A stretch of DNA of 32,245 nt, from IMG/VR virus record IMGVR_UViG_3300044993_000395, positions 1 to 32,245 of that record, one strand, 5' to 3'. Source of the stretch: a virus. The translations under genes were made by a program, and so were the position numbers. The notes below the pieces were generated by a model. It was given only the letters and a program-made list of their open reading frames with translations, was not told the DNA's origin and did no database searches. Shown here piece after piece: positions 1-32,009 of the stretch (within the stretch, counting starts at the first letter, position 1; every line of letters begins with the position of its first letter).

Positions 1-160
1 ATATTTTAGGTATAGTTTAAAACTATACGTGCATATTTTAGGTATAGTTTAAAACTATACGTGCATATTTTAGGTATAGTTTAAAACTATACGTGCATAT
101 TTTAGGTATAGTTTAAAACTATACGTGCATATTTTAGGTATAGTTTAAAACTATACGTGA
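1..160. repeat. Five tandem 32-bp repeats, each with a 19-bp palindrome
   Basis: Five head-to-tail units of 32 bp begin at 1, 33, 65, 97 and 129 and are essentially identical; only the last diverges at its 3' end. Each unit contains the inverted repeat GTATAGTTT-A-AAACTATAC. There are no variable spacers, so this is not a CRISPR array. The array touches the window edge and may continue to the left. It lies about 60 bp upstream of the BRO-type gene at 224. An operator array or origin iterons are the two likeliest roles; the sequence does not decide between them. Confidence 0.9.
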
Positions 161-223
161 TATATTTTTTACTACTTAAACTTTTTATTTTTTATTTTAT
201 ATAAAAATATAATTTTATTTATT

Positions 224-1087
224 ATGTTAAATTTTCCTATAAAAAATGTAGAATACACTATTGTGTATAATGGTATTATTATTCCTATTAAAAGAATAGG
301 TAATGAAGATTAGTACAGAGCAAAAGAAGTGTGTGATAATTTAGAACTAAAAAACACATCATATGCAGTAAAAGTTATTAAAAGTGAATATAAAACTTTA
401 ATAAAAGAATCTAATGGTAAAGAATTTTTATATATTCACCGAAAAGGAGTCATTAAGTTATTAACTAAATCTAGAAAAAAAGGGCCAGAAAAGTTTGTTG
501 ATTAGATGATTGAAAAAATAGATGATTTAATGATTTATGGTACAGTTAGTCTTGATAATATTAATGTTCCTCAAAATAATTTCTTTTTAAAAGAAAAAGA
601 GCTAGAATTAAAAAACAAAGAGCTAGATTTAAAAGAAAAAGAGATTACACTTTTAAAACAAAAATATGAATTATTAAGTTACATTAATCAGGAAAATAGT
701 AATAAATTAGAAAATTTTAAAAATACTATTAAGTTAAAGCATAATATACATAAAAAAGCATTAGAAAAATATCCTGAAAATGAAAAAATTGCTAAATTAT
801 ATGAAAAAGTATTTATTAAAATAACTGAAGAAGTATCAAATTTTAATTTAGATTTAGATTCATGTGGATTATTTTTAGAAGAAATTGTTGAAACTTTACC
901 TTTTAATTTTTCACCAAATGCCATGATAAGTTTAGGGAAATATATAGCAAAATTACATAAACCTGTTGGTAAAGGTTCTAAAAATGGATTTATGTGCAAT
1001 ATTTATGAAATTACACCTGAATTAATTGAAAGTATTTATAAATAGATTGATGAAAATGATAAATATAATATTAAACTTTTAAATTAA
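224..1087 (+). CDS. BRO-N domain (antirepressor-like) DNA-binding protein
   Basis: The 287-aa protein contains three in-frame TAG codons, read as Gln near residues 30, 94 and 274. Residues about 15-100 resemble the BRO-N domain of phage antirepressors and baculovirus BRO proteins: a beta start (NGIIIPIKRIG), then a YRAKEVCDNLELKNTSYAV helix pair and a late YIHRKGVIKLLTKSRKKGPEKF segment. A strongly charged coiled coil (repeats of KEKELELKNKELDLKEKE) follows at about 125-160. The C-terminal 130 residues resemble the variable C-terminal domains of this class. The ATG at 224 is the first in-frame start after the palindromic array, and the gene ends in TAA before two strong terminators. A likely role is transcriptional control of phage genes, with the upstream repeats as possible targets (inference). 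Confidence 0.7.
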
Positions 1088-1139
1088 TTATTTATATAAA
1101 TATTATATTTTTCATGATTTAATTTTATTTTTTATTATA

Positions 1140-1170
1140 ACAGGGGAACAAAAAGTTTCCCTGTTTTTTT
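1140..1170 (+). terminator. Intrinsic terminator after the BRO-type gene (copy 1)
   Basis: The hairpin ACAGGGGAAC / GTTTCCCTGT has a 5-nt A loop and is followed by a run of seven T. It lies about 50 bp downstream of the BRO-gene stop. A second, related hairpin follows about 120 bp later in a duplicated context. Confidence 0.85.
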
Positions 1171-2483: not shown

Positions 2484-2504
2484 TTAAAATTTAAATATTT
2501 TTGG

Positions 2505-3827
2505 TTTAGTTATATTGTTATTTGCAGAAACATGCTAATTTGCTAAAGCTAAACTCATCACCATATCATCATGTAAACCATTAGGAGCAGAATAAATTAT
2601 ATTGCCATTTGTAGAAATCCTAAATTCAAAACTAATCAATTCATCAATAAGTTCACTTATTAAATTAGAATTATTGGTACAGTTTTTAATTTTACCTGTT
2701 TCTAAGTCTAATCTAAGATTATTGATTATAGTTTGCTTACTATCATTAGTTGTGTTAAATGCTTCAATCTTTTTATAACCTGTTTTTTGTAGTTGTTCAA
2801 TAATCAAACTACCAGGTCCATTTTTTTCAATTAATGCTTTAGATTGCTATCTAACTAAATGGTTAATAATCTTATTTGTTATGGTTTCCTAAGGTAGTTG
2901 GTTGAACTTTTCAATTTCAACAATTTCTTTGTGTTGATTCATTGTTGTTATAACAGTGTAGTCAGATTCTTTTGCAATATCAACACCAGTGAAGTAGTAG
3001 TTATTGTTAGTTTTTGTTTCTTGGTTGCATATAAGTAACTGATCAGTTCCTTTAAAAACAGACCCACCTGAATCAATGAATTCTGCTAAGATTTCCTGTC
3101 TATATATATCAGTACCTTGAAGTTTAAGCAGGTTTTCTTTCTCTGCATCCGGTATAAAAGGATTATCAAAAGTAGTTCCTCTACATACTATTTTTTGATT
3201 ATCCTTAAGACCCATTAAATGCCTATAGAACTAATTTTTGCCTCTGGGTGTTGAAACCAAATAAACTTGTCTTGGTGTAAAACAAATTTGTTTAATAACT
3301 GTATCCTAAGCAACATCAGGCATCTTAGCTGCTTCATCAATAAAAATATAATTTGCTTTATTCCAACCTCTTAAGTTTTCATAGTTGGCATAACTGAATC
3401 CATATATAATGCATCCATTAATAAGTTTAATCAGTTCACCTTTGTTATAAGCAGTAACCACTGGTCTAAGTATACCATGAAGTTCTTCAAGTAGGTTTTT
3501 GGTGAATGCATGTGATTGTGTAATCACATAAATTGGATTAATTTTATCATGAAGGGCGGTCAAGGCCGTTTTAAGAATTAAATTAATCAGTAAAGCTGTT
3601 TTGCCAAAGTTTCTGCCACACAGTAAAAATCTAAATTTAGCTGTGGATTTGCTTAATTGCAGAGCAATTTCATATTGTTTAGGGTGTAGTGGTTGACTTT
3701 TAAGTCTTGTTATGGTAGTTTGAATATTGAATTTATTTGTTTCTGCAATTCTATCTTTATTAAGACAGAAATCCAGATCATCATCTGATAAATCATTCTA
3801 GTTTGCAAATAGTTTCTTGGGATTCAT
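2505..3827 (-). CDS. terL: Terminase large subunit
   Basis: This 440-aa protein is the ATP-driven DNA-packaging motor and headful or cos nuclease. TAG codons split it into several standard-code fragments in one frame. Visible motifs: Walker A GRNFGKT at about 71-77, Walker B plus catalytic acid YIFIDEAAK (DE at 164-165), coupling motif STPRGKNQFY at 192-201 in which the Q is a TAG, and the RNase H-like nuclease with GVDIAKESDY (Asp 283) and the late HDDM at 419-422. Length is normal for the family. The ATG at 3827 was chosen as the first Met in the open frame; it lies inside the end of terS, giving a 35-bp overlap typical of coupled translation. The gene ends in TAA. Confidence 0.93.
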
Positions 3828-4457: not shown

Positions 4458-4681
4458 AGCATTGTATTTATTTTTAAGTTAATTAATTCTGCTGTTAGAC
4501 TAACTAAAGATGCAAAGATTATTGAAGTAAACTAATGTATATTGATAATTAGCAAACCTAATAAAGTTAACTAAAAACTAGTGCATTTAAGACATAAATT
4601 TATTTTTATCTAATATTCAATAAAATCCAAAACTAAAATGTTAATCTAAGCTAAAGAAATAATGGTTAATATTATCTCCAT
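4445..4681 (-). CDS. Small two-helix membrane protein visible only with TAG as sense
   Basis: With TAG read as Gln an open frame of 78 aa runs from the ATG at 4681, inside the 3' end of the sigma-like gene, to TAA at 4445, inside the next gene. It has an N-terminal hydrophobic segment (MEIILTIISL, then INILVLDFI) and a second one (LTLLGLLIINI and FTSIIFASLVSLTAELI), with a KINLCLKC loop between them. Four TAG codons lie in the frame, which is why standard-code scanning misses it. It fills an otherwise empty 180-bp gap with the overlapping junctions seen throughout this operon, which argues that it is real. A lysis-associated or membrane-modifying role is possible, but nothing identifies it. 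Confidence 0.6.
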
Positions 4682-5183
4682 GTTTACTTATCATTATTTT
4701 TTTTAATGTTTTTATGTTTTTTTTATAGTTGCGGTATACATAAGAGTAGTCTTTATTTATTAGAATTGAAATCTCTTTGAAAGTACAGTTGCCTAATATT
4801 TTGCATTTTAGTATTGCTTCATCAATGAAATTAAAAGCAGGACTTGTTATCTCTTTGTATATTATGTAATCTAATTTTTCTTGATGCAAAACATATTCCA
4901 TGTTTGATATGGTTGCCTTGTTTGCTATATTTGCTATATTTACAGTATCTTCATGTGTCTTTAATTCATTTAGATAAATGTTTTTTGCTGACATAAGTAA
5001 ATAATTTGTGTTTATTTCTTTTGTCTTATTTTTTTCTAGTATTAAATATGTTTTCAAATAAGCTTCATGTAACAAATCAATTGCTTTTTGTGTGTTTACT
5101 TTATTATGTTTTGCAATTGATTTAACTAAGTAATCATATTTTTGATTTACTATTTGATTTAGCTTTATGATATTTGCGTTCAA
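4641..5183 (-). CDS. Sigma-70-like RNA polymerase sigma factor
   Basis: A 180-aa protein with no TAG codons. Residues about 30-90 resemble sigma region 2 (KAIDLLHEAYLKTYLIL, then TNYLLMSAKNIYLNELK), and residues about 130-165 resemble the region-4 helix-turn-helix (NCTFKEISILINKDYSYVY, then RNYKKNIKTLKKIM). The size fits short phage or ECF-type sigma factors. It lies in the operon with terS and terL; similar small sigma-like genes beside terminase are common in phages of Bacteroidetes (family knowledge). It may direct host polymerase to phage promoters, with the repeated leaders at 7020, 17440 and 26054 as obvious candidates. A non-sigma helix-turn-helix regulator is the alternative. Confidence 0.6.
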   Translation of the reverse strand: MNANIIKLNQIVNQKYDYLVKSIAKHNKVNTQKAIDLLHEAYLKTYLILEKNKTKEINTNYLLMSAKNIYLNELKTHEDTVNIANIANKATISNMEYVLHQEKLDYIIYKEITSPAFNFIDEAILKCKILGNCTFKEISILINKDYSYVYRNYKKNIKTLKKIMISKHGDNINHYFFSLD

Positions 5184-6135: not shown

Positions 6136-6741
6136 TTATATATTTAAATCATTACTTTCCAATAAAGTATATGTGAAACTATTTCCCTAATATTTAACTG
6201 CTTTTTGATAGTGTGATAAAAACTGTTTATATAATGGATCATTTGGGCCACTTTGAATAACCTGACAACCTGCTGACCAATTGTCAACTCTATTCTAATT
6301 ACTAGAATAATGTATGTTTATGCCAAACCAACTTCCTGCATTTATGGTTTTCCAATCACAGTCTATAATGTCATCTCTGTTTTTATCTCTGAATAACTTC
6401 AGATTACCAACTTGTTGTAGAGCTGGATGTCCATAATGCCATCCTAAACAATGGGAAGCTCTATACTGTCCAGGCACTAAAATTGCAGTTCCAAAATCAG
6501 GTAACATAGGGTTCTTAAAATAAACTAAACCTGCAATAGTAGTACAAGGATATTCATAGATTTGATATTTCCCATTTACTTTATAAAAAACATAAAGATA
6601 ATCATCAAACTTATTGGAAACCTTATCACCTGATTTACTGGTTCTTACACCAACTGTATTAATATTATAATCACCTTTGGTGAACACCGTATATCCTTTA
6701 GATTCCATTGCATTTATCAACTGGTCAACTGTATATTTCAT
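6136..6741 (-). CDS. Lysin-position protein with a YkuD-like HxxxxxSxGC pattern
   Basis: A 201-aa protein directly downstream of the holin, overlapping it by 4 bp, so the position fits an endolysin. The sequence contains GWHYGHPALQQ, a FRDKNRDDIIDCDW strand resembling a calcium-type acidic loop, then FGINIHYSSN and VDNWSAGCQVI. The spaced His and SxGC pair resembles the catalytic pattern of L,D-transpeptidase-like (YkuD) folds, with the Cys in SAGC as presumed nucleophile. Two TAG codons are needed: one joins HYSSN to NRVDNW, so the catalytic Cys would be lost with the standard code; the other gives KYQGNSF. I infer a peptidoglycan-acting enzyme with lysis as the likely role. The assignment is by motif only. 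Confidence 0.6.
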
Positions 6742-6974: not shown

Positions 6975-7019
6975 TTTTTTTATTGTTTTTTGTTGTTTAA
7001 ACCATCCAGGTTTGATTAT

Positions 7020-7250
7020 TTTTTTTATTTTGATATAAACTATAGGTTAAAACACTTTTTGCAATGTAGGTACCTTAAAATTCATTTATGCAAATATGAA
7101 CATTTGTTCATATGGTCTTGACCCCAATTTAAAAGTTTTATTATATCAGGATAGAGCTTAAAGCAAATTTTATACAAAATTTATATATTATTATATTAAG
7201 AAAATATATCCAAATTTTGCATTAAGTTCAAATATAACTTATAAAATGTT
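7020..7250 (-). repeat. Leader repeat copy 1, upstream of the lysis/packaging operon
   Basis: The 302-bp gap 6975-7276 has no gene. Its centre is a segment that recurs at 17440-17640 and 26054-26262. Read on the minus strand it contains, in order, the 50-bp quasi-palindrome (7219-7172), a GCTTTAAGCTC stretch, an ATATGAAC-4-GTTCATAT hairpin, and a conserved block TTTGCATAAATGAATTTTAA followed by GGTACCTACATTGCAAAAAG. The TTTG and TACATTGC boxes, about 22 bp apart, loosely match the Bacteroidetes -33/-7 pattern (TTTG, TAnnTTTG). In this orientation it points at the holin gene. Promoter or regulated leader is inferred. Confidence 0.8.
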
Positions 7251-7276
7251 TTTATGGGAATGTTCATAGTTACATT

Positions 7277-7568: not shown

Positions 7569-8072
7569 TTATTTATAAAATATTATACCAGTGCTCTAAT
7601 TATTTTTATTATTGTTGCAATCATTGCAACTTCCTGTATAAAGCGGATAAAGTTGCTTATTTTTATTTAAATATTCTATTAATTCTTTTTTGAAGTAGTC
7701 TCCTTTTACTTCAAGTTCACCTCTTAAGTAAATCATATCTGCTTTATCAATAGAAGTAGTGTTTTCTGAAGAATGTTTTACAACTCCTATGTTTTCAACT
7801 CTATGCACAAAAAAAGGTAAAATATCATATAAAGAATAATAAACTAACGCAGGAGCAATCAAATCTAATAGTATTTGGTTAAGAATTGTAACCGTGTTAG
7901 TTGATATTTGTAATTGAAGTTGGTCAATTAAAGCAGTTCCTAAACAATCATAAAATCTAATTTGTTGTGCAATTAGAATACTACTTCTGTAGTGAGCAAC
8001 ATCTATATTTCTACTTATATTGGACTATTTATCAAAGTCCTCTTGCTTTACTAAAAGAACATTATTTGGCAT
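7569..8072 (-). CDS. Head-tail connector-like protein (DUF6712-like)
   Basis: A 167-aa protein with TAG codons at the DKQSN junction and near the C terminus (NNQSTG). The first half is helical (SNISRNIDVAHYRSSILI, then RFYDCLGTALIDQLQ), followed by LIAPALVYYSLYDILPFF and VENIGVVKHSSENTTS, then RGELEVKGDYFKKELIEYLN. The ALVYYSLYDILPFF...NIGVV pattern recalls a Bacteroidetes phage family (DUF6712) found next to portal and capsid genes. The start at 8072 overlaps the portal stop by 11 bp. The C terminus has a Cys pair in GSCNDC. Neck or adaptor role inferred from family and position. Confidence 0.55.
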
Positions 8073-9225
8073 TGCTTATTGTGTTTATTTCGTTTATACT
8101 TTCATAACCAATCATATTTCTTAGTTCATCTCTGGTTAATATGTTAACTAAAGTACTTTCAGAAAAACTAGTGCTAATTGGTTTATTATTTATAATTGAA
8201 GTTTCTTCAATGTTATTTTGTTTGGTTATTATATTTATTGCCTATAAAATATTATTTTGCAAATTTGCAATAGTTGTGTTATAAAATAGTTCATAGGCAA
8301 TCATTAATTCATTTGCATTACCACCTAAAGAACCAGAACCAGGTAAACTTGCTAAAACTGGACTAGGTAAATTATGTGCAGTGATTATTTTTTGCATACA
8401 GGTTTCATTTAAGTTATTAAATATATCCACATTATTATTTACATCAAATGTTTGAAAACTAGGAGCTCTAGTGTCTCCTGCATTATTTGGTTCACTATTT
8501 ATTACCAAGGCCTTAATATTTTCTTCACCAACAAAATATTTTTGAAAATTTCTAACAAATTCTTGTTCTGTTTGTTCATCAGGAAACTTATTAGAAGTTG
8601 TAACAATTACACTTGGAAAGAAACCTTTTTTTATATTGTTTAAATGGAAGACTCCTAGTCTTTTTTCTGCTTCAATGTAATTGATAGCTGAACTATAGCT
8701 TGGATGAGGATAAGGAGAATTATAAGGATTATAGTTGCCATATATAATAATTTGAACCGGTTCTTCTTCTTTATTAGTTGGATTATAAATTGGATAAGCA
8801 ACAGGTTTCTTTTTATTTGTTGTCTAATCTTCTTTATATAAAAGTGACACAATATTTCCAAATTCATCAACTTGGAATCTAATTCCTTTAATTGGCACAT
8901 AATCAAAATCTGCAATAGTAGTTCTATCTCTGCTCTATATTATTTTTAATGCATATCCACCAAAAATAATTAAATCACTTGCTAATTTGTTTATTAGATT
9001 TTTTTGTTTAAGTAAGTTATTAAATTCTTCATTACCTTCAAGTGATTCTCCTATTGTATAATATATCTTTGTGTTAATTATACTTCCATTAGTTGGTGAA
9101 TTAAGTAAATCTAAAAGGTATTCAGGATATAAATTATCTTGACCCTAAGATACTATATTGTATCCACTTGTTCTTATTGTTTTTGTATTATCAAATGATG
9201 ACTGCTTTATTAAATAATTTTTCAT
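8062..9225 (-). CDS. Portal protein
   Basis: A 387-aa protein reconstructed across TAG codons (VSQGQDN, IIQSRD, EDQTTN, NILQAIN). The order of features fits phage portals: the N-terminal arm with YNIVSQGQDNLYPEYLLDLL, the ASDLIIFGGYALKII segment, RTTIADFDYVPIKGIRFQ, a clip/stem region with AEKRLGVFHLNNIKKGFFPS, and the late helical crown with HNLPSPVLASLPGSGSLGGN and ELMIAYELFYNTTIANLQN. It would form the dodecameric ring at the packaging vertex. It is on the small side for portals. It overlaps the connector-like gene by 11 bp. Read with the standard code it is reduced to scattered fragments. Confidence 0.75.
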
Positions 9226-10507: not shown

Positions 10508-10989
10508 GATAAATCTAATAATGTTTTAATTATCAAACTAAAAGAAGTATAACTTCCTGATTCAGTTCTACTTATATTTCTTATTTTGAATTCAATGGTG
10601 TCACCTGGATTCATAGTTAGATTATATTTATATGTGTAGTTAACACCTGTTGAATTATTAACAGTGTTATAAATAAGAGGACTTAATGGGTCCAGGATAT
10701 TATTATGAAAAATTGCACCTTCATAAATAGTGGTTCCTGCTGTTAGATGCCTTAGATTTTGTACGTAAACTTTTATTTCCATTATTTCTGTTGTGGTTCC
10801 ATTATATTGTAAAACACCTGGAGTTAATTCATTAAATTGATTAAAATTGAAATTATAAATTGGACCAGCAAAAGCTAATAATGAACCATAAGTATTTAAA
10901 ACCTAATTGTGATTAATTGAGGTAGTTATATTTCTATACTCAATCTAGGCCTATTTATCAATAGGTTTATTTCTTTTTATATAACTCAT
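10504..10989 (-). CDS. Hypothetical small virion protein
   Basis: A 161-aa protein starting MSYIKRNKPIDKQAQIEYRN with two TAG codons near the N terminus (both Q in KQAQI) and another in NHNQVL, plus an internal Met at about residue 70. The C-terminal part resembles a beta sandwich with a GDTIEFKIRNISR strand (EIKVYVQNLRHLTAGTTIYE, NYTYKYNLTMNPGDTIEFKI). The NPGD turn recurs in the neighbouring genes. The stop overlaps the next start by 4 bp (ATGA). Function unknown; presumed minor virion or fibre protein. Confidence 0.6.
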
Positions 10990-11714
10990 ATCAAATTCTA
11001 TTGTGTTCCATTAAATCTAAAAGTAAAACTTTCCTATGCATTATTAATAATAAACGTGGTTGAACCATCAATATTATAAGGTCCACCATTAACTGTAATT
11101 GGTAAACCTGAAGAACTACCTGCTGCATCTTTAATAACATGAATTTCACCTAATATTGGGTTATTAGGTAGGTTTACTGTTAAAGGTATACCTGCGGTTA
11201 AGGTGTCCATTAATACCATATAGTGATTAATGGCAATATTAAAAAAATTAGTTGAAATATTGATTTGAGCAGAGTTAACAATACCTATGTTATTTTGAAC
11301 ATAATTTGACTAAACTAACAAATTGTTGTTTTCAACAAATGCAGAACCATTAGAAACCAACAAAGTAGCAGGATTTAATGGTGTAGGTAACCCTGCTCCA
11401 CCTGATGATAAAATTCCAACCTAATCATTATTCAGGGTATCATAAATAAATTTAGCTGCTGCATAATCTTGATTTACAGTAAAATTTGGTTGACCATTAA
11501 TTAATTGATTATTTGCTGAAATAGTTATTGGGTTGGTAGATGCATTACCTGTTGCATCAACAACAACAACTGTAGTTCCTAATATAGGATTATCAGGTAA
11601 AATAACACTAACTGAACCTACTAATGTATTTACAATTATTTCTTGATTATCTCTGTTTGTTTGGTATGGACTAAGAGATAAACTATTGATTAATATATAC
11701 TTATTTCTGTTCAT
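10986..11714 (-). CDS. Fibre-like protein with two copies of a beta module
   Basis: A 242-aa protein with two copies of a module of about 60 aa. Copy 1 reads VILPDNPILGTTVVVVDATG then NPITISANNQLINGQPNFTV; copy 2 reads VNLPNNPILGEIHVIKDAAG then LPITVNGGPYNIDGSTTFII. A third relative lies at the C terminus of the protein at 12797-14023. This module (LPxNPxLGxxxxVxDxxG...ITxxxxxxxIxG) is widespread in phage head or tail fibres. A linker with NPATLLVSNGSAFVENNNLL connects the copies. TAG codons occur at the NND-V junction, in VQSNYV, in NNAQESF and near the end. Likely a decoration or fibre protein on the particle surface. Confidence 0.65.
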
Positions 11715-17384: not shown

Positions 17385-17675
17385 ATTTATATAACTGTTT
17401 TTTATATCTGATTATTCAACTGACCACATTAAAAACTTTATTATAACTTAGATAGCTTGAAGCAAATTTTACGTAAAAATCGCAAACCTGCAAGATGCAA
17501 CCATGTTATCCAGATAATTTAATAGTTTTTAAATGGGTGTCAAGACCATATGAACATTTATTCATATTTGCATAAATGAATTTTAAGGTACCTACATTGC
17601 AAAAAGTATTTTAACCTATATAAAATATCAAATAATAAATTATTGTGTCCCAGAAGTGTCCTAAACGCAAAATTA
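17385..17675. repeat. Leader repeat copy 2, reverse orientation relative to flanking genes
   Basis: This 291-bp gap has no gene. The stretch 17440-17640 shares the hairpin ATATGAA-6-TTCATAT and the block TTTGCATAAATGAATTTTAA plus GGTACCTACATTGCAAAAAG with copies 1 and 3. Here the block lies on the + strand, pointing into the tape-measure 3' end and away from the protease start at 17384. The 50-bp quasi-palindrome is missing, and the GAAGCAAATTTTACG stretch beside it is inverted relative to the core. It lies between the tape-measure stop and the capsid operon start, so a promoter or processing role for the capsid operon is likely. Confidence 0.75.
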
Positions 17676-20600
17676 TCATATTAAAGCATTAGAATCAATA
17701 ACCTGAACTCTGTTTAATCCTTCTGCAACATCTACTACAGAAAGGAAGACTTTTGGTTGTATAATTTGGTTTGCATCAATTGTTTTTAATCCTTCAAAAT
17801 TAGGAGTTAAAACTCCACCTGTTTCATAACTTTTATCCGCATTAATAAAATCCAAAATTGGTTTATACTTTGCAGTTGACCTTTTGTTTATTACATATTC
17901 ACCACCTTCTACTTCTATGTTGTTAAACCTTCCTGTTCCTCTTATTCCACCTTCTGCATGACTAGGACCCTCTAATATACCACCTTCCTCAAGAGGCCTA
18001 ACTGCATCTATTATAGATACAACTAAACCAACTCCAGCAGCTACTGCTGCAGTTGTCAAAGCTACAGTTACAGGAGCAGCTACACCACCCTCTGCAGCGG
18101 CCTTACTAACTGCAGCTAAAGCATAGGCCAATGCTATAGCAGATTGAGCAGCAACTATAATCTTTGAAATCCGCTCCTGCTTCTTTGCATTTGCCTCCCG
18201 CTCCTTCTCCAACTTCTGCTCCTCCTCCTTCAACTTATTTATAGACTCAATCTGATTCTCAATTGCTTCCCTGTTCTTATCCCTTAACGCATTCTCCCGC
18301 TCTAATTGAGATATTATCTCTTCCCTCCTTGAACCCTCTGCAGACACCAATAAACTCTGCAACGTCTTTATCCTATCCTCAACTGACCTCAAACTTTCCT
18401 CCAACCTCTCCTTCTCCTTATCAAAAGTTTTTAATTTTTCTCTTATTCTAACTAATTCATTTTCAATTGCTTGACCATTAAGAGTTATAATTAAGTTTAT
18501 TGCATCTTTGATTGATTTTCCTAGGTCTTCAATACTTTTGGTTAGGAATTCTTTTTGGGATTCTGTTATGTTTTTGAATAATGATTCTGCTGCGTCACCT
18601 ATTATGTTGCTGAAAGCATTATTAGGGTCTAGTAGGTTTCTTAGATTATCTAAGAAAGATTTAGTTAAGGTTTCAGCTCCTTCTTTACCTTTTTGTTTTA
18701 AGATTTTTATGTCTATGTTGAATCTTAGTTTTGTTGCTTCTATTTCTTTTTGTATTATTTTGTCTTGTAAGTCTAAAAGTTCAACTTGTTTTTGATATTC
18801 TTCATCTGAGATTAAACTTAAGGCCTTTGCATTTTCTAATTCTAATCTTTTTAAGGTTAAGATTTCACCTTTTACATCTAAGTCATTAAGTGATTCTTCT
18901 AAGTTTTTGATTAGTAATTCATTTTCTAATTCAAGTTCTTTGTTTAATTGTTTTTGTCTTTCAGTTTTATCTGCAAATACACCTTCAGTTGAATTTAGAT
19001 TTTTACCAATTGTTTCATATAGAAATACTTCTTCTTTTAATACGTTTTTTGCTAATTCATTTTCTAAAGCAAGTTTTTTAGAAAGTTCATTGTTGGTTTC
19101 TTTTATGCTTATTTGTTGTTCAATTTCCCTATCAAATTGTTCTTTTTTTAGTTTATTTATTGCAATTTGATTTGCAATTTCAGTTGAATTAATTTCTTGT
19201 TTTAATTCATTAATTTTATTTAGTTCATCAACATTAATTATGTTAAGTTTTTGTTTTTCTTCTAATACTTTTAGTTCTAATAATAATCCATTTAATGTTG
19301 TTTTATTCAACTGCTCTTGAAGTGCTATTTTCTCTGAATATAAGTTAGTTTCTAAAGATAATCTTGTTTGTAATTCTGCTTTAATTATATTTAACTGCGA
19401 AATTTCCTTTCTAAATGTCTCTTCTAATATAGCTCTGTTGTTTGATATTCTTTTATTTTGCAAACTTATTAACAAAGTCTCTTTTTCCGCAAGTTTATTT
19501 GCTAATTCAATTTCATCTTCTGCGGTAAGTTTATTTGCTTTTTTTAATTTATTTAAGGTTTCAATTCTTTTGTTAAGTATTTCTAATTCAAGTGACCCTA
19601 TTTGATTTTCTAAAAAAGATCTTTGCTTAGCTCCTATTATTTCACTATTTAATAACTCTTCTAATAACGCTTTTTTCCTTGTTAATCTTGCTTCTTCTTG
19701 AGCACCAAGTCTTTTTATGTTTTCGGCCTCTTGTTGAGCAATTAGTTGATTTAAAGTTATGTTTTTGTTTCTGTAATTATTTGCTAATTCCAATAATTTA
19801 TTTATCTGTTCTTGATTTAAACCTAATTGCTTACTTGATGAAACAACATCATCTACTTTTAACTGAAAAAATTTTATTAATTCACCACCATAATCTAATT
19901 CATAGTTGAAATTCTTTAATTCATCTACCCATATTTTTAATCCATCTGCAACAACTTCATTTACTTGCTTTCTATTTTTAACTATTGCATCCAGTTCTTT
20001 TTCAATTTGCAAAATATCTAATTTTGCGGCCTCTATTGTAAGTTCCTGTTTTTTATTTATATCTAAAAAAGCATTGTTTGCTAAAGTGTTATAAGTATTT
20101 GCAAGTGCACTTAATGACTTATTTAATTGCTCAACTAATTTTAACTCTTTTTCCAATTGGGCATTTGCCAAGGACCTATTATAGGCCTCCTGGGCCTTTG
20201 TTAATGAACCTAAAGATTGTGTAAAAGCAACAATAGCATCAAACCCTGCAGTTACTTTTTCTAAAAAACTAGTCAATCCCCCTGAAAACTTAATAAAAAT
20301 TAAAGCAGCTGCAGTTAAGGCCCCACCTAATGCTATGGTTAAAGCAGCACCCTTAACTTTTGCAATATTTAAAGCTATTTGTGCCTCTGTTTGCTTATTT
20401 GTTGCTAAAGTAACAGCAGTTAAATATAATTTTTGAGCAACCAAAGAAGAATTATAAATTGATTCAGCTGTATTCCGAATACTTTGTATTGCCAAATAAG
20501 ACCGAGCTGCCCTTTCTAATACTGCAATTGAATCTGCTGCTCCTTCATTAGATAATTGAATTAATTGATTTGTATTTATTAAACTTTCTGCTATTTGACC

Positions 20601-20939
20601 TGTTGCAGCTAAAAAATTATCTATTGTTAAACCTGCGTTTATTTCTGCTTTTAATTTTTCTACATTTTGTATTGATTTATCCATTGCCTGAACAAACCCA
20701 GATTTAAATACATCTACATTACTTCTTATTGCTGTTATGGCATTGTCAGTTTGCTCTATCTCTGCAGCAAGTTTATTAAAAGCATCTGAACCCAGTTTTG
20801 TTTCCAATAAGGCCTGATTAAGACTATTTGATTTCTCTACTAATGAAACTAACATCTTTTGGGCCTCTTCTAATGTTGTTATGGTTTGTTGAGCACCATT
20901 TAAATTAAATTTAATATCTACACTTAATTGAGTTGCCAT
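17676..20939 (-). CDS. Tape measure protein
   Basis: A 1087-aa protein, the longest gene here, with no TAG codon over its whole length. It starts MATQLSVDIKFNLNGAQQTI and has long heptad-like coiled coils (for example KRIETLNKLKKANKLTAEDE, KEQFDREIEQQISIKETNN), one hydrophobic stretch at about 195-220 (GAALTIALGGALTAAALIF) and a second at about 935-985 (SAIALAYALAAVSKAAAEGG, LTTAAVAAGVGLVVSIIDAV). The C terminus reads FNNIEVEGGEYVINKRSTAK, usual for tape measures of Bacteroidetes phages. It sets tail length and helps DNA ejection; the length implies a long, siphovirus-like tail. Codon use shifts to G-ending codons around 18150-18430 (see findings). Confidence 0.9.
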   Translation of the reverse strand: MATQLSVDIKFNLNGAQQTITTLEEAQKMLVSLVEKSNSLNQALLETKLGSDAFNKLAAEIEQTDNAITAIRSNVDVFKSGFVQAMDKSIQNVEKLKAEINAGLTIDNFLAATGQIAESLINTNQLIQLSNEGAADSIAVLERAARSYLAIQSIRNTAESIYNSSLVAQKLYLTAVTLATNKQTEAQIALNIAKVKGAALTIALGGALTAAALIFIKFSGGLTSFLEKVTAGFDAIVAFTQSLGSLTKAQEAYNRSLANAQLEKELKLVEQLNKSLSALANTYNTLANNAFLDINKKQELTIEAAKLDILQIEKELDAIVKNRKQVNEVVADGLKIWVDELKNFNYELDYGGELIKFFQLKVDDVVSSSKQLGLNQEQINKLLELANNYRNKNITLNQLIAQQEAENIKRLGAQEEARLTRKKALLEELLNSEIIGAKQRSFLENQIGSLELEILNKRIETLNKLKKANKLTAEDEIELANKLAEKETLLISLQNKRISNNRAILEETFRKEISQLNIIKAELQTRLSLETNLYSEKIALQEQLNKTTLNGLLLELKVLEEKQKLNIINVDELNKINELKQEINSTEIANQIAINKLKKEQFDREIEQQISIKETNNELSKKLALENELAKNVLKEEVFLYETIGKNLNSTEGVFADKTERQKQLNKELELENELLIKNLEESLNDLDVKGEILTLKRLELENAKALSLISDEEYQKQVELLDLQDKIIQKEIEATKLRFNIDIKILKQKGKEGAETLTKSFLDNLRNLLDPNNAFSNIIGDAAESLFKNITESQKEFLTKSIEDLGKSIKDAINLIITLNGQAIENELVRIREKLKTFDKEKERLEESLRSVEDRIKTLQSLLVSAEGSRREEIISQLERENALRDKNREAIENQIESINKLKEEEQKLEKEREANAKKQERISKIIVAAQSAIALAYALAAVSKAAAEGGVAAPVTVALTTAAVAAGVGLVVSIIDAVRPLEEGGILEGPSHAEGGIRGTGRFNNIEVEGGEYVINKRSTAKYKPILDFINADKSYETGGVLTPNFEGLKTIDANQIIQPKVFLSVVDVAEGLNRVQVIDSNALI

Positions 20940-20948
20940 ATTGCTTTA

Positions 20949-23312
20949 TTATATTCTTGGTAATAATTTTATTGTTAATGGTTTTGGATTTATTACATTA
21001 TAAGGTGCAAAATTAATCAACCTGTAATATATACCATCTATTTTTATCAAAGTATTTGATTCTATTTTAGCATAATCAGTGTAGTCCATATACACAGAAA
21101 AACTTACTACTTCAGACTGCTCTAATTCCAATACATAATTATACTAATATTTTTCATAAAAATAGTTCCAATCTAAATTTAAATTAGTCGCAGCAGTCAT
21201 AGTCAAAAGTCTTATTATTGTAGCTGAGTTTGTAAAGGTATCCTAATATATAAAAGGTACATAAGTATGCAAAACATAAGGACTTTTTAATCTAAGTAAT
21301 CTTCTTTGAAACTTTAAATTCTAAGGTACATATCCTTGGGTAACTTTACCCTAAAAAGGAATATTCTGTGCAGGTGTGCCTACTAGTCGAATCTCTGGTT
21401 CAGACTAAACATCATTTTGCGGACTATTATAACCTGATTCAGTTGTAATCATTGGTATATCAATGGACTCTTTTATGCTGAAGTTTTCTTTGTAAACATA
21501 AGGTGCAGTTGAACTCATCAATTGCTAATTAATCTAAAAATTAACTGAAGTAACATCTACATTTTTAGTTACCAAAAAAAACTTTTGCATCTCTGTTTTG
21601 CTAAATCCAAGCTGAATAGTCTGCGGATTATCTTTTGTACGTAAATTCAAATCATAGGTGTAATTCTAATCTGTATCCCCAGTTACTAAGAAGTCTCCTG
21701 AATCATAGTTATAGTTAAACTCCAATTTACTATTGGTTAAAGTCTGCTCTGAAGACAAATATTTACCTTTTAACTCAATAGCAGTTTCAACTGGATTATA
21801 AAAGTTATCCTAAGTCTCAAAATATATTGTCTTATTGGTTGTGTCTTCTATTATATATAAATTATATAAACTTATAAAATCCTTTATAAACTCCAATTGT
21901 GAATCTGCAGGCAAATTATCCTGAATTATAAATTCATTAGTGTAATTTGCTTTTATCTGATACTCAATTGTATTTGAGGCATTAATGTTAAACAAATAAT
22001 TAGGTGATAACTGCTGAAATATCACAAGTCTATATCTATCCCCTTTACTAGGTGTAAAATTCACATTAGCAGTTAAATTCTAAGTATATGTACCAACAGT
22101 AGGCATGGGTAACTCCTGCTCCTATATAACCAACTCCGGATTCAAAATTACTGATTGACCCAATACAGTATCAACTAAATTATCTACATCTGTACCTATT
22201 TTTATTAAAGCAATCTTTGGATAAATCCCAATTGTACCAACTGCCTGAGTCTCAAAATTAAAATTTAAACTAAAATTATATGAAATCTCAGAAGTAGGTG
22301 AAACCTAAGTACTAGTATTCCAATTTATTAAACTGTTTACTGTGTTTTTATATTCATCAGCAGTATAGAAAATATGGTTTAACCCATGGTTTTCTGTGTA
22401 TTGCTAGGTATTTGGTAAACCTGCAATAGGTACATCAAATGAACCATAAAAAACAAAGTTGTTGTTAGATGGATAGTTGCTGTATATTGAAGCAAAATAT
22501 GAATTAGTAGGTCCAATGTATTTTGCTTTGTATCCACCTAAGGTTCCCTAGTTATATTTAACCTGCTTGTTTGCTGTATAAGGTATTATAAGTGTATCTA
22601 ACTCCTCTGAATCAATCTAAGAACCTAATACAGTATACCCAATATCACTAAATATTTGTCTAATTATTGCCCTTACATAAAAAGAAGGTGGAATATCACT
22701 ATAAGTTAATTTATTAACTTCTAATGGATTAATTAACTTATTTTGTAATGCAATAGTAGTATCAGTTGTATCTATATAATAACCAGGTGTTTGCTTAAAT
22801 GGAATTGAATAAGCACCATATGCAACCAAAGGAAAAACTAAAACATTATCATTAGAATGACCAACAGGGTCAACAATTTGATCAGACTAACTTTTTAATA
22901 TGGTTTCCATACCATAAAAAGGAACTGGGTCAAACTGTAAGTCTGTTAATTTTTTTTGATTAATCAAAGTGCTCCAAGCAATGGTGTTACTTTTTATGAA
23001 TCCTTGAATTCCTGTTTTACCATAGGCAGTTAAGATGAATACACCTTTTAATATGCTTAAACTGTTAACAAAAATCTCTGTGTTATATGGTTCAGTGTTA
23101 TTGAATTTGCCTCTGTTATCTAAATTAAAATTTAACCCAAATATATTTAGATTATTCTGAGTTGCAGGAAACTGCACAGTAAAAGAAGTTACATCTCCTC
23201 TACTATCAATTTGAGCAAAAGTTAAAACCTGCTTCTTTAATAATAGCGGAAAATCTTCTCTTTTATCTATGTCTACTTCTTGATTATTAATTAGAATTTT
23301 TAAAACCCTCAT
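20949..23312 (-). CDS. Baseplate / tail-tip protein
   Basis: A 787-aa protein that needs more than a dozen TAG codons read as Gln. N terminus MRVLKILINNQEVDIDKRED, then FPLLLKKQVLTFAQIDSRGD, VTSFTVQFPATQNNLNIFG: the NNQEVD...SFTVQFPAT..N pattern is the usual start of the large tail protein next to the tape measure in Bacteroidetes phages. C terminus reads IDGIYYRLINFAPYNVINPK and PLTIKLLPRI, also usual for that family. It starts inside the stop of the gene upstream (ATGA, 4 bp) and ends 10 bp before the tape-measure start. Probable hub or distal-tail component made before tail assembly. Confidence 0.65.
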
Positions 23313-26053: not shown

Positions 26054-26262
26054 TGTTAAGCAAAATTTGGATATATTTTCTTAATATATAATATATAAAT
26101 TTTGTATATTTAATTTGCTTTAAGCTCTACCTTGATATAATAAAACTTTTAAATTAGGGTAAAGCATATGAAAAAATGTTCATATTTGCATAAATGAATT
26201 TTAAGGTACCTACATCGCAAAAAGTGTTTTAACCTATAGTTTATATCAAAATAAAAAAAATA
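26054..26262 (+). repeat. Leader repeat copy 3, upstream of the rightward pair
   Basis: Between 26048 and 26273 there is no gene. The stretch carries the 50-bp quasi-palindrome (26061-26110), a GCTTTAAGCTCTACC stretch, the hairpin ATATGAA-6-TTCATAT and the block TTTGCATAAATGAATTTTAA plus GGTACCTACATCGCAAAAAG. It matches copy 1 along its whole length, on the + strand and pointing at the gene that starts at 26274. Both full copies therefore lie a similar distance upstream of a gene cluster in the same relative orientation, which supports a promoter or leader role. Confidence 0.8.
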
Positions 26263-26273
26263 ATTCAACCAGG

Positions 26274-26750
26274 ATGATTAAAATCACAAAAACAAGTATT
26301 ATTGCTATTATTGCCATAGTAAGTTTAATAAGTTAGGCAAGTTAGGCAAGTTATGTAATTTAGACTTAGAAACCTGAGATTAGGGAAGTTTATAAAACGG
26401 ATACTATTTAGGTAAATAAATATTTGAAAACAGATACAATTAGAATCAAAGAAAAAGCAATACCCACTAAAACTGTTATATACAAAGTTGATACAGTATT
26501 AAGAGACAAGGTAATTCAAGATACCCTGATTCTTAATGTGCATAAGACCTTAAGAAACTTAACAATAAGCAAAATTGACACAAAAGGTTTAGTCTACCAA
26601 CAACATTACACAACCCCAATTTTATCAACTATCTTAATAGACCACAAAGGCAATGTAAAAATCAAAAAGTATAAAGCTCTTAAATAGTCAGCTGCAATCC
26701 TACTTACTGTAGGTACAGCAGTTTAGACTTTTAAGAAAATAAAAGGTTAA
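26274..26750 (+). CDS. Signal-anchored hypothetical protein, seven TAG codons
   Basis: A 158-aa protein. The N terminus MIKITKTSIIAIIAIVSLIS is a basic start plus a hydrophobic segment, either a signal peptide or an anchor, followed by QASQAS encoded by two copies of a 9-bp repeat (TAGGCAAGT). The body alternates Thr/Ile/Lys (VYKTDTI, YLKTDTIRIKEKAIP, TVIYKVDTV), giving short beta-like repeats. The end (AAILLTVGTAVQTFKKIKG) is a second hydrophobic patch. Seven TAG codons lie in frame, the densest in the rightward cluster. A spanin-like or envelope protein is possible from topology only. Confidence 0.6.
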
Positions 26751-27252: not shown

Positions 27253-27297
27253 TTTTCAGACTTTTAAGAAACTAAAAGTTAGTTTAAAAAAAAAAAA

Positions 27298-27319
27298 TCC
27301 ATTAGATTGCTCTAATGGA
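27298..27319. terminator. Bidirectional hairpin between convergent genes (copy 1)
   Basis: TCCATTAGA-TTGC-TCTAATGGA is a perfect 9-bp stem with a 4-nt loop, preceded by a run of A (T on the other strand). It lies between the rightward gene ending at 27252 and the leftward gene ending at 27349. An identical copy occurs at 27778-27799. Confidence 0.8.
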
Positions 27320-27348
27320 CCTAATCTTAATGAAATTTATATACCATA

Positions 27349-27568: not shown

Positions 27569-27777
27569 ATTTTTTTAATTTTAAATTTTATAATACAAAG
27601 ATAAAACGTTTTTTTTTAACAAAATAATTTTTTTTAAAAATAGGTGTTTTTACTTATTTAGACTTTTAAGAAATAAAAAGTTTATTTTTACACCAGCATT
27701 TATAATACAAAGATAAGCAAAATTTTAATACAAAAAATAAAAAAATAAAAATAAGTGTTTTTACTTAGTAAAAAAAA
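27569..27777. repeat. AT-rich segment with imperfect direct repeats
   Basis: No gene is visible between 27569 and 27831. TTATAATACAAAGATAA occurs near 27590 and again near 27700, and a TAAGTGTTTTTACTTA-type stretch near 27644 and again near 27752, so a unit of about 110 bp has been duplicated imperfectly. TTTAGACTTTTAAGAAAT-type sequence between the two also occurs upstream of the copy-1 hairpin. The segment ends in the copy-2 hairpin. Probable terminator/promoter region. Confidence 0.6.
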
Positions 27778-27799
27778 TCCATTAGATTGCTCTAATGGA
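27778..27799. terminator. Hairpin, identical to the one at 27298 (copy 2)
   Basis: The same TCCATTAGA / TCTAATGGA stem with TTGC loop, with the A run in front and GGACCTAA after it, as in copy 1. It lies between the leftward gene ending at 27884 and the small gene starting at 27568, so it probably ends the replication-gene transcript. Confidence 0.75.
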
Positions 27800-27831
27800 C
27801 CTAACACACATATAACAAAACTTACACAATT

Positions 27832-28786: not shown

Positions 28787-31738
28787 TTATATTGAAAAGT
28801 TTTGTAATTTTTTAAATTTATTATTAAAATTATATATTTTTAATTGTTGTCTATCTTTTTTTTCATTACTTTTAAAAATGTCGAAAAAAAAGTCAATAGT
28901 AAATAATAAATGTTCAATTCTTAAAGTACCTCCTTTAATAGTTATAGAATTTTCTGCTAAAATATTTAGTTCTTTATCAGTTAAAGGTTTGTTTATATTT
29001 TTTAATGAATTTATAAATGTAATAAAGTCATTAATAACAGTTTCATTAACAATATTTTTAGTTTTTTTATTTTGTTCATTATTAATGATATAGTTTATCA
29101 ACTATTTTTTATTATTTGTATTATATTTTGCTAATTTTATTACTAATTCTTTTAGGTAATTTTTATGTATTATATTACTTAATTTATTTTTTAAATTATA
29201 TAAGGTCATAACTTTATCATCTTTTAAATTAATCAAAAAATCTTGATTATTTAAAAAATTAGTTTGTTCATATAAAGCATCCTAATTTGTTTTTTCTTTA
29301 TTTACTTTAGGCAAATCATTTTTATTATTTTCATTATTTTCATTATTAACTTCTAATTTTTTTGGTAGTTTAAAATTATTTTTCATTATTTTTTTAAGTC
29401 TTGTATCATCTTGCATACAATTATTTTGATTTTTGTAATCTTCATATAATATACCAAAATAATTAATATACTACATATTATTGTGATTAACAATATAAGG
29501 TGATTTAAAATAAATTAATTCACTTGGAATTTGATTATATTGGTCAAGATAAAATTTATTGGCGTTATATAAAACACTAAATGGATAAGTGTGTGTATTA
29601 ATTTCATCTATCATATATTTTTTAAATATAACAATTTGTTCAGGTGATTTTCTACATCTACCTGAAACTTGTGTAATAATTGCTGGGTCATTATCTAATA
29701 TAATATAAACAGTTTTTGTATTCTATAAAAAAGAAACACCATCTTGAATAACACTGGTACTTAAAATAATTCTATATTTTGTTTCCCCTGATGCTAAAGC
29801 TTCTTTATTTTCATGATTATTTTTATTATTATTTTTATTTAAATAAAGAATTTGACCTTTGTAATGTTCCATTAAACGTTCATTAACATTATTTCTATTA
29901 TTAGAATAAATGTATATTTTAGTATTTTCTTCTTTTAAAAATGAATTAATTATTGAAGGTAGTTCTTTAATAGAATAAAAATAAAAACAGTCTTTAAGTT
30001 TAGGTTCTTTTTTAATCATATTGATTATGATTATATTAGGGTACAAATAAAGATTTAAAGGGGTTGCTGTTAACCCTATAATTGTAGTATTTTCTTTTAA
30101 TAATTTATTGATTAATATAGTAGTGTTATTAATCATTTCTTTCCTGTAAGTCTAATCAAGAATTAATCTATGAATTTCATCAAGAAAAATATAATCAACT
30201 TCATAGTCTAAATCAACTATTAGTCTATAAGCTGATTCATAGGTTACCACTACTAAATTATTGCAATTTTCTTGAATTTTTTCATTAAAAGTTTTTTGAA
30301 AAGTATTTTTGTCGTAGTAAATAACTTTATTTACATAATTATTTTTACTAACTATGTTTTCTTCTTCACTTAATTCATCAGGTCCCAAAAATGAAAAAAC
30401 ATTTATATTTTTATTATCTAAATCAAAAAAATTTAAAGAATCTTCTAAATTTGACAGATTCATTACATTAGCTCTATTAGGTTGAACAAGTAAAAATAAC
30501 TTTGTTTTATTAGGTTCATAAAGTGATTTTACCTAATCAAGAAGCATGGTAGTTTTACCTGAACCAACATCTGAACGTATTAAAAATATATTTTCTTTCT
30601 TATTATTTGCAATTATTTTTTTTATTTCATTTAATTCTTCAGTACAATAATTATTATATTGAATAATATAATTATATTCAGATACAGGTTTACATAAATA
30701 AGGTTCAATCTACAGTTTTAATTGGTCTAAAAACTTATTGACTTCTGGTGAAAAATTAGCAGTATAATCAGTTTTATAATATTTTTCTATTGTCTTTACT
30801 TCTTCTATATTATCAATTTCATTATCAATGAAATTATATAAAATTTTCATTACTTCTTCTTCTTTTAATATTATTCCTTTTTCACTGTAATATGAATTGT
30901 AAATTGCTTTTTTGATTTGGTGAATGCCATAGATCCTACCATTGTTTTTTAAATGTATTTTATTATCATAAGTTATTTCAAACTATTTTAATTGAGTTGA
31001 ATAGTCAGAATTAACATTTAAAACTGTTTTTTTTGAATTCTTATATTTTTTGTTATATTTAGGTATTTTTGTAATTTTTATTTCGTCAGGAACATTAATA
31101 ACTATATTGTTATAATTAACATTATATTTTGTTTTACAAAGAAATATACCTTTAGCAGCATTTATTGATTCATCTTGTATCTAACCATCAATTATTAATT
31201 TTTTATCTTTTTCATCTAAGATATTATCAATAAACCATTGATTAATAAAATATTTAATGTCATCATTGTTTTCTTTATCAATTTCTAATATTGCTTTAAG
31301 ACCTAATCCTGATGGTGAAATAAAAAGTAATCTTGAATAATCAATTAACTTAATATAATACTTATTCAATAAAAACATACATTCATCATAAGTAATTATA
31401 CCCAACTCAATTTGATTTTTAAAATCTAAATCTAGTTGACAAAAATTAGTTGCTTTAAAATTTTCTTTAGATTTGCCTAAGATTCTTTGTTTAAAAGTTC
31501 CAAGATATAAAACAGGTAAATTACTTTTAGAGTTTCTAAATATTTCTTTTTCAGTATTTGAAATTTCATACCTTTTTGTTTTATCATTCCAATCAGTTTT
31601 ATCAAAATTATAATAAACATTTTTATAAACTTCTTTAATATCCGCTTTAATTTCAGACATTAATTTTTCTAAACCTTCATTACTAAATATAGTTGTCAAA
31701 GGTTCTTTTTCTAAATAATTTTTATATAAAAGAAACAT
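28787..31738 (-). CDS. VirE_N-type primase-like plus SF2 helicase fusion
   Basis: A 983-aa protein in one frame, with at least nine TAG codons. Residues about 35-185 resemble the VirE_N / BT4734-like domain found in primase-type proteins of Bacteroidetes elements (LPVLYLGTFKQRILG, ATNFCQLDLDFKNQIELG, LLFISPSGLGLKAILEI). From about 390 a superfamily-2 helicase follows: Walker A RSDVGSGKTTM (about 390), DEIH in DYIFLDEIHRLIL (about 520), IGLTATPLNLY (about 556), VIQDGVSF and QVSGRCRK (about 690, motif VI). The rest (about 750-983) is Asn/Lys-rich and helical. Probable replication initiator or primase-helicase. The ATG at 31738 was chosen for the AAGGAAA 8 bp upstream. Confidence 0.75.
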
Positions 31739-31756
31739 ATTATATTTCCTTAAAAG

Positions 31757-31806
31757 CAAAATTTGGATATATTTTCTTAATATATAATATATAAATTTTG
31801 TATATT
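31757..31806. repeat. 50-bp quasi-palindromic element, copy at the replication gene
   Basis: CAAAATTTGGATATATTTTC followed by TTAATATATAATATATAAAT and TTTGTATATT. The ends CAAAATTT / AAATTTTG form an inverted repeat. It lies about 20 bp upstream of the ATG of the primase-helicase gene and is near-identical to 26061-26110 and 31945-31994; 7172-7219 carries the reverse complement with a 1-bp insertion. Probable promoter/operator. Confidence 0.75.
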
Positions 31807-31832
31807 AAAGTTGTTTTATCTTTATTTTTTGA

Positions 31833-31857: not shown

Positions 31858-31944
31858 CAAATTTTAAACCTTTTTAAATTTATGGAGTTAGAAAAATTTG
31901 TTCCTTCCATAAAAGTATTTTATAACCTGTTATTGAGGTTGATA

Positions 31945-31994
31945 CAAAATTTGGATATATTTTCTTAATATATAATATATAAATTTTGTATATT
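31945..31994. repeat. 50-bp quasi-palindromic element, second copy near the edge
   Basis: An exact or near-exact repeat of the 31757-31806 element, 138 bp further on in the same orientation. It lies just past the stop of the partial gene at 32010 and upstream of the primase-helicase gene. Two copies in direct orientation could be paired regulator sites. Confidence 0.75.
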
Positions 31995-32009
31995 TATTTT
32001 GTTTTTTTA

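Follow-up and report, generated by a model that had tools for sequence, protein, structure and literature searches.

What does a tandem array of palindromes do at the edge of a phage genome record, and how is the gene directly beside it translated, given that its frame is open only when TAG is taken as a sense codon? The window studied here, 32,245 bases long, is the entire, linear IMG/VR record IMGVR_UViG_3300044993_000395, with base 1 at its left edge. Its G+C content is ~27%, and it encodes a tailed phage's terminase, portal, capsid, tape measure and tail proteins (assigned by Pfam/PHROGs), together with a GIY-YIG protein, an SSB-like protein and an SF2 helicase, which is a probable replication protein. 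The reading that we favor, with reasonable confidence, is that UAG is translated as tryptophan genome-wide, in early and structural genes, and that a palindromic array, probably an origin, lies beside a UAG-containing regulator gene. Features are collected in Table 1.

Table 1. Features of the 32,245-base window, with positions counted from its first base.
Feature	Position	Strand	Description
Tandem array	1..160		Assembled as five units of 32 b; at least 5 in the genome if k was 127
19-bp perfect palindrome, copy 1	10..28		
AT-rich stretch	161..223		3 G+C of 63; between array and Bro-N gene
Bro-N protein gene	224..1087	+	287 aa; Pfam PF02498; open only with TAG as sense
In-frame TAG	311..313	+	Bro-N residue 30, aromatic position of family motif E-P-[YW]-F
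In-frame TAG	503..505	+	Bro-N residue 94, conserved Trp of family motif F-K-x-W; P(W) 0.66
Intrinsic terminator after Bro-N gene	1139..1165	+	Terminator scan
Terminase large subunit (TerL)	2484..3827	-	Six in-frame TAGs
Portal protein	8062..9225	-	Four in-frame TAGs
Tape measure protein	17676..20939	-	1087 codons, 0 TAG, 61 CAA/CAG, one TGG
SF2 helicase	28787..31759	-	990 aa, nine in-frame TAGs

The units of the array, at 1-32, 33-64, 65-96, 97-128 and 129-160, occupy intergenic, noncoding sequence. Units 1-4 are identical and unit 5 deviates only at its final position, 160, where A replaces C, so that exact 32-b periodicity spans 1-159 and breaks at 160. Each unit carries once the perfect 9+1+9 palindrome GTATAGTTTAAAACTATAC (copies 2-5 at 42-60, 74-92, 106-124 and 138-156). 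A scan allowing up to three mismatches returned ten rows over both strands, which are the five array places only, where 0.04 were expected (100 shuffles); the half-site GTATAGTTT occurred 10 times, all within the array, against 0.72 expected, and the closest unit-like sequence elsewhere in the window had 11 mismatches in 32. The original prediction, made from these letters alone, of near-perfect 32-bp units, five in number, each with a 19-bp palindrome, is confirmed by the periodicity and the palindrome scan, and its proposal that the palindromes all face the same side of the helix, fit for cooperative binding, agrees with a unit length of 3.05 helical turns (32/10.5). Searches beyond the window found the exact palindrome as four single matches in viral contigs; two of these (L006, L008) have flanks unrelated to those of the array, and the other two are on the minus strand. 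A 23-mer of the unit had no match in genome contigs, and a relative with an orthologous array locus was found neither in the viral contigs nor in the genome contigs.

Several other identities for the array were considered and rejected. It is not a CRISPR array, the entire 32-b unit being constant and variable spacers absent. Its palindromes are not terminators, being AT-rich, lacking a T run and absent from the terminator scan list; nor was a circular genome opened at the array, for the end overlap is just 6 b. An RNA element was rejected on the lack of an Rfam match; the folding energy of 1-223 is low (z -7.2), and tandem palindromes alone give such values.

The number of units was also examined with respect to assembly. 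In a de Bruijn assembler, an exact array longer than k becomes a loop, and the contig that leaves it carries k bases plus 32 for each retained turn; in a toy graph with a long array, the exit contig held exactly k array bases at k = 77, 99, 127 and 141. The exact-periodicity length of 159 equals 127 + 32, and of all k values tried, just two leave a whole number of turns, 127 (one turn) and 95 (two turns), the chance of such a fit being ~1 in 32 for one preset k. According to PMC10914622, k = 127 is the top k in common metaSPAdes settings, and repeat-broken contigs terminate in shared sequences of maxK length. Since 159 = 127 + 32 is the start expected from a k = 127 assembler, five units are no evidence about the genome; if k was 127, there would be at least 159 b of exact periodicity and therefore at least ~5 identical units, and the real number may be far larger. 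A recent expansion, previously proposed from the unit number, thus loses its basis, as the count follows from a contig that starts one loop turn before the k = 127 exit. Assembly collapse, named beforehand as an outcome that would tell against the array, largely accounts for the unit number, while the existence of the array stands, and the array illustrates how an assembler's k can dictate the number of units in a record.

As for function, it is quite likely that the array binds a protein. That it is a putative iteron-type replication origin is our leading but tentative reading, to which we give slightly less than an even chance. Since the palindrome is found at no other locus of the window, a function confined to this single locus is favored. 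The array would be a cluster of identical sites for a dimeric DNA-binding protein, and these sites would most likely be iterons of an origin, with an initiator filling the 19-bp palindromes, which would share one helix face at a spacing of about three turns, and with the adjoining 63-b AT-rich stretch being opened. We infer protein binding, the identity of the initiator and the start of replication at the array. As in iteron origins, tandem direct repeats each contain an inverted repeat and have an AT-rich neighbor; this neighbor, which counts against an origin in not being unique, is one of five places with such extremely AT-rich intergenic sequence, where 44 of 32,183 segments of 63 b are as poor in G+C as 161-223. 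This stretch is possibly a DNA unwinding element, the promoter and leader of the Bro-N gene, or both. No replication initiator gene was recognized by Pfam among the 20 of 38 ORFs scanned in the window, which has the array at its left edge.

Known repeat systems invite comparison with the array. The lambda ori (O protein), as described in PMC7466680, likewise has, next to an AT-rich tract, a series of direct repeats that are themselves inverted repeats of ~19 bp; it differs in having four imperfect iterons within the O gene, whereas the array has a perfect palindrome, a spacing of 32 b, an intergenic location and no known O-like protein. RepA_N iterons of the plasmids pSK41 and pTZ2162 and of the Vibrio cholerae satellite PLE are ~30-bp semi-palindromic direct repeats, and in these, as in the array, the inverted halves join at a poly-A tract (accounts in PMC7145576 and PMC8263062); a RepA_N protein was not found in the 20 of 38 ORFs scanned with Pfam. 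This layout, in which direct repeats with internal inverted symmetry adjoin an AT-rich tract, matches that of lambda-type and RepA_N iterons and so supports the origin. The hr regions of baculoviruses, too, consist of direct repeats with core palindromes in AT-rich intergenic DNA, in genomes that also carry bro genes, and are described as enhancers and as origins in transient assays (PMC3545888). Those are insect viruses with several hrs dispersed per genome, in contrast to one array in 32 kb, and the likeness is a resemblance, with no kinship claimed. The array is a new example of an already known sort of element.

The gene directly downstream is, as originally noted, of the Bro-N type. Its start codon lies 64 b from the end of the array, and its product passes the PF02498 cut-off of 25.6 bits with TAG read as glutamine (30.4 bits) or as tryptophan (43.2 bits), scoring 35.6 bits with tyrosine. 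The Bro-N domain covers approximately residues 24-99 and is followed by a predicted coiled coil; a single-sequence AlphaFold model had a pLDDT of 46, too low to rely on. Besides the two in-frame TAGs of Table 1, a third lies at 1043-1045, and two further terminators (1259-1284 and 1369-1391) follow the first downstream of the gene. Within 1118-1346 a 119-b sequence stands twice in tandem, and both copies consist of an intrinsic terminator and then an AT-rich box that resembles 176-220, immediately upstream of the Bro-N gene; these copies may be left over from lost genes or small transcripts.

The strongest alternative to an origin, still an unlikely one, is an operator array, in which the palindromes would be the target of the Bro-N protein, or of some other regulator of the phage, that switches the Bro-N gene off or on. 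It would fit the short distance to the start codon, the predicted DNA-binding/antirepressor nature of the Bro-N domain and the arrangement of the gene as its own transcription unit with three terminators after it. To see how regularly such arrays accompany Bro-N genes, we surveyed 80 IMG/VR loci and 9 loci from phage records, of which 86 had at least 500 b upstream, using Tandem Repeats Finder (periods of 15-60, 2.8 or more copies and a match of 85% or better, within 500 b upstream). Results showed no tandem array upstream of Bro-N in any of the 86 loci, the Bro-N domains compared being remote from that of the window (13-23% identity among the members of set A3). Nine arrays occurred anywhere in the 673 kb of Bro-N loci, none having a palindrome arm of 8 or more, and a further 44 loci of remote kin and chance matches (528 kb) contained no palindromic array. 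Arrays are not a habit of Bro-N genes, although, given how remote the compared domains are, an operator private to this one gene is conceivable. Moreover, single palindrome copies before other genes of the window are absent, and at least five identical operators exceed what is usual for one promoter. The special tie between array and Bro-N gene that had been proposed is therefore not borne out by either the 86 loci or the other genes of the window; what holds of the original interpretation is a palindromic, intergenic array that neighbors a Bro-N gene and whose geometry would suit a dimer binding cooperatively, and the iteron origin, originally named as the rival idea, fits somewhat better.

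A neutral or selfish tandem repeat, without function and kept identical by recombination, is a slightly fainter prospect than an operator. At least five identical units are what recent amplification gives; against this, every unit retains a perfect 19-bp palindrome, rarely expected by chance as given above, and the array is intergenic. A partition (centromere-like) or other nucleoprotein site of an episomal phage is very doubtful: tandem palindromes do adjoin a gene for a DNA-binding protein with a predicted coiled coil, but the partners ParA, ParM and TubZ were not found in the 20 of 38 ORFs scanned with Pfam.

Other repeated elements occur in the window. A long intergenic element is present in three copies that are 86-93% alike (6987-7134 on the minus strand, 17527-17639 and 26165-26292 on the plus strand) and carries a GGTACC core and the 20-bp palindrome ATATGAACATTTGTTCATAT, of which 17548-17567 and 26166-26185 are variants; at 17547 its orientation is opposite to both adjacent genes, and it may serve the phage in control, for instance as a promoter/operator. 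An AT-rich element of 50-65 b, GCAAAATTTGGATATATTTTCTTAATATATAATATATAAATTTTGTATA, has four intergenic copies (7171-7257 on the minus strand, 26058-26122, 31754-31818 and 31942-32006), up to 95-100% alike in part, which are likely phage promoters. A perfect 35-b duplication with the hairpin TCCATTAG...CTAATGGA, at 27290-27324 and 27770-27804, is probably a duplicated terminator. A protein encoded at 4641-5183 on the minus strand weakly resembles sigma-70 (ECF) factors (NCBIfam TIGR02937, 25 bits against a cut-off of 42.9) and may direct late transcription.

The phage itself has no close kin among the sequences compared. By its major capsid protein (MCP), the nearest isolate is Nonlabens phage P12024L (Inhavirus), at 25% identity over 99%, which is similar in genome size and has a helicase of the same broad kind, but is annotated with the standard code and has no Bro-N gene in its record. 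Scans of viral contigs with single proteins (Bro-N protein, TerL and MCP) found no relatives. Remote loci were obtained with an MCP alignment (18), a tape-measure fragment (21) and a TerL alignment (29), and these are ~20-35% identical over long stretches, with short tape-measure pieces higher; close relatives numbered zero, and the MCP alignment found no relatives in genome contigs. By these comparisons the phage appears to stand alone, with only remote kin, among the viral contigs searched.

We then consider the code. Of the 38 ORFs, 29 including Bro-N contain TAG in frame, 123 times in total and 16 times in ORF 20949-23312, a major structural protein; the ORFs end in TAA (28) or TGA (10). 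UAG is, virtually beyond doubt, a sense codon in this phage. The same holds for the Lak and crAss-like phages of code 15, where UAG is sense throughout many genes and UAA and UGA are stops; they differ in that their UAG is glutamine, whereas here UAG falls at aromatic or tryptophan positions. TAG was first read as glutamine here as well, and TAG columns were then seen to align with aromatic residues of relatives. In TerL, relatives have Y/F/W opposite the TAG at 3306-3308 and W opposite those at 3231-3233 and 2889-2891; for the portal TAG at 8824-8826, eight of nine relatives show W (tblastn); and at Bro-N residue 30 the profile column gives W 3.75, Y 2.61 and Q -0.8 bits. From such alignments and the tests below we predict, with considerable confidence, that UAG is tryptophan and that UAA and UGA are the stops; that UAG is something other than glutamine seems almost certain.

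To compare the candidates, protein families were scored with TAG translated as glutamine, tryptophan or tyrosine (scores below are in bits, in the order Q/W/Y). In PHROGs, summed over 15 ORFs, tryptophan led glutamine by 59.6 bits and tyrosine by 24.2 bits; nine other TAG-bearing ORFs, scanned with tryptophan, either matched no family at E 0.1 or matched one that was not part of the TAG test, and five lay outside the PHROG scan. The contributors were Bro-N (phrog_2899, 25.5/41.6/33.0), TerL (phrog_2, 118.7/132.3/125.7), portal (phrog_11226, 101.6/117.2/113.9) and the tail ORF 10986-11714 (phrog_972, 40.2/49.3/43.6, the family used in the sum; the alternative phrog_20556 gave 42.9/46.4/47.6), with smaller differences for ORF 26761 (phrog_29822, 31.2/34.8/31.5) and ORF 12797 (phrog_20556, 22.4/25.9/24.8). 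For the capsid, SSB and six other ORFs the three readings differed by at most ~2 bits. Three families went against tryptophan, namely phrog_3000 with ORF 6136-6741 (104.5/100.3/103.4), Phage_portal PF04860 (24.7/20.5/21.5) and Helicase_C (26.5/24.0/25.2), and Terminase_6N favored tyrosine (45.3/45.8/47.9). The helicase in Pfam was neutral on the code, and it had no relative in PDB with either tryptophan or glutamine.

We also built our own profiles from relatives only, available for eight proteins, of which the five with TAG enter the sum; for the Bro-N profile, near-duplicates were thinned by eye, which left 58 of 80 rows from IMG/VR, and 8 of the 9 phage loci were used. With TAG translated as each of the 20 residues, tryptophan came first (737.9), followed by tyrosine (726.2), phenylalanine (718.9), histidine (714.5) and glutamine (705.6). 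Control codons were called correctly in 22 of 26 cases and the wrong ones were off by at most 3.1 bits; for the control codon TGG, phenylalanine came first and tryptophan second by 1.8 bits. Across seven subsets of TerL and Bro-N relatives, tryptophan was first in six, tyrosine in one and glutamine in none. In tblastn against 50,697 phage records, the Bro-N protein matched 12 with TAG as tryptophan (best E 1e-3) and none with TAG as glutamine, while the portal and ORF 10986-11714, searched with TAG as tryptophan, matched no phage record. Taken together, the sequence comparisons argue strongly against glutamine, and the case they make for tryptophan over tyrosine is good, coming mostly from the Bro-N protein, TerL, portal and one tail protein.

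Gene content bears on the same question. The tape measure protein has no TAG, while most genes are TAG-rich, which fits a tryptophan-poor protein; given the TAG share elsewhere, the probability of this is 2.5e-9 if TAG is glutamine, 0.036 if tyrosine and 0.24 if tryptophan. Columns with a tryptophan consensus were too few for a codon count to tell (5 or 6, with TAG in no more than one), and by Spearman's test the TAG density per ORF showed no correlation with TGG, glutamine or tyrosine codons. The small protein at 26274-26750 has a membrane segment, predicted by eye, and just after it a run of ten codons that includes four TAGs (SLIS-X-AS-X-ASYVI-X-T-X-KPEI); if tryptophan, these would be interfacial residues.

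That UAG encodes tyrosine is improbable. Tyrosine was top in a per-column test of 13 TAG columns (Y 14.8, W 12.7, F 4.4, Q -4.3), in which control codons were right in 38 of 44 cases and which misses Bro-N residue 94, and it was second in nearly all others; with few, remote relatives, tryptophan and tyrosine columns are hard to part. Against it, tryptophan is ahead by 11.7 bits in our own profiles and by 24.2 bits in PHROGs, and Bro-N residue 94 falls on a conserved tryptophan. Adding TAG would also bring tyrosine to 6.45% of residues, compared with 4.53 ± 0.65% predicted at 27% G+C from the fetched loci. The corresponding values are 5.14% against 3.72 ± 0.75% for glutamine and 1.66% against 0.92 ± 0.34% for tryptophan, which by TGG alone stands at 0.41%, and residue composition does not decide the code.

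Glutamine, as in code-15 phages, would make the aromatic alignments accidents of remote homology, and we regard it as extremely unlikely. Precedent favors it: the TAG-recoded phages described in PMC9523058, PMC7886860 and PMC11210395 read TAG as glutamine, metaproteomics having been applied to code 15 in the first of these, and glutamine is also favored by the three families named above as going against tryptophan. The PHROG, Pfam Bro-N, own-profile, subset, tape-measure and Bro-N tblastn results all stand against it. The positive control also behaves, since in Prevotella phage Lak-A1, with its reported glutamine for TAG, glutamine came first for Resolvase (86.5/69.4/74.3) and Terminase_6N (46.1/42.3/43.3), and with our TerL profile W, Y and F came near the bottom for this phage.

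With tryptophan again as the preferred reading, we asked for precedents. The phage reassignments reported in PMC7886860, PMC11210395, PMC10746230 and PMC12386605 are of TAG to glutamine or TGA to tryptophan, and a full-text literature search, with most subscription papers outside its scope, found no report of UAG as tryptophan in a phage. The authors of Codetta traced calls of UAG or UGA as tryptophan in yeasts to pseudogenes (PMC8629427). Such an artifact is unlikely here because TAG sits in long conserved genes throughout the phage. UAG as tryptophan is NCBI table 32, the code of Balanophora plastids, and to our knowledge it is otherwise known only from this plant plastid, which shares with the phage the reassignment proposed here and a very AT-rich genome and differs in being a plastid. 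If this reading of the code is right, phage recoding gains a new variant.

The array alone is a modest finding, and its value lies mainly in offering a possible origin that can be tested, in a lineage of phages that has no close relatives. If UAG is tryptophan, a biochemical question follows, namely how a tRNA with the anticodon CUA is charged with tryptophan, since tryptophanyl-tRNA synthetase (TrpRS) reads the anticodon; the window, part of an incomplete genome, has no tRNA genes of any kind and hence no tRNA-Trp with this anticodon. Phage stop recoding would also be wider than the reported changes of UAG to glutamine and UGA to tryptophan. Pipelines that read all TAG-recoded phages as code 15 would then misplace a residue at each such codon and hide homology, as with the Bro-N gene, whose matches to phage records (12 against 0) appear only when TAG is read as tryptophan and not as glutamine.
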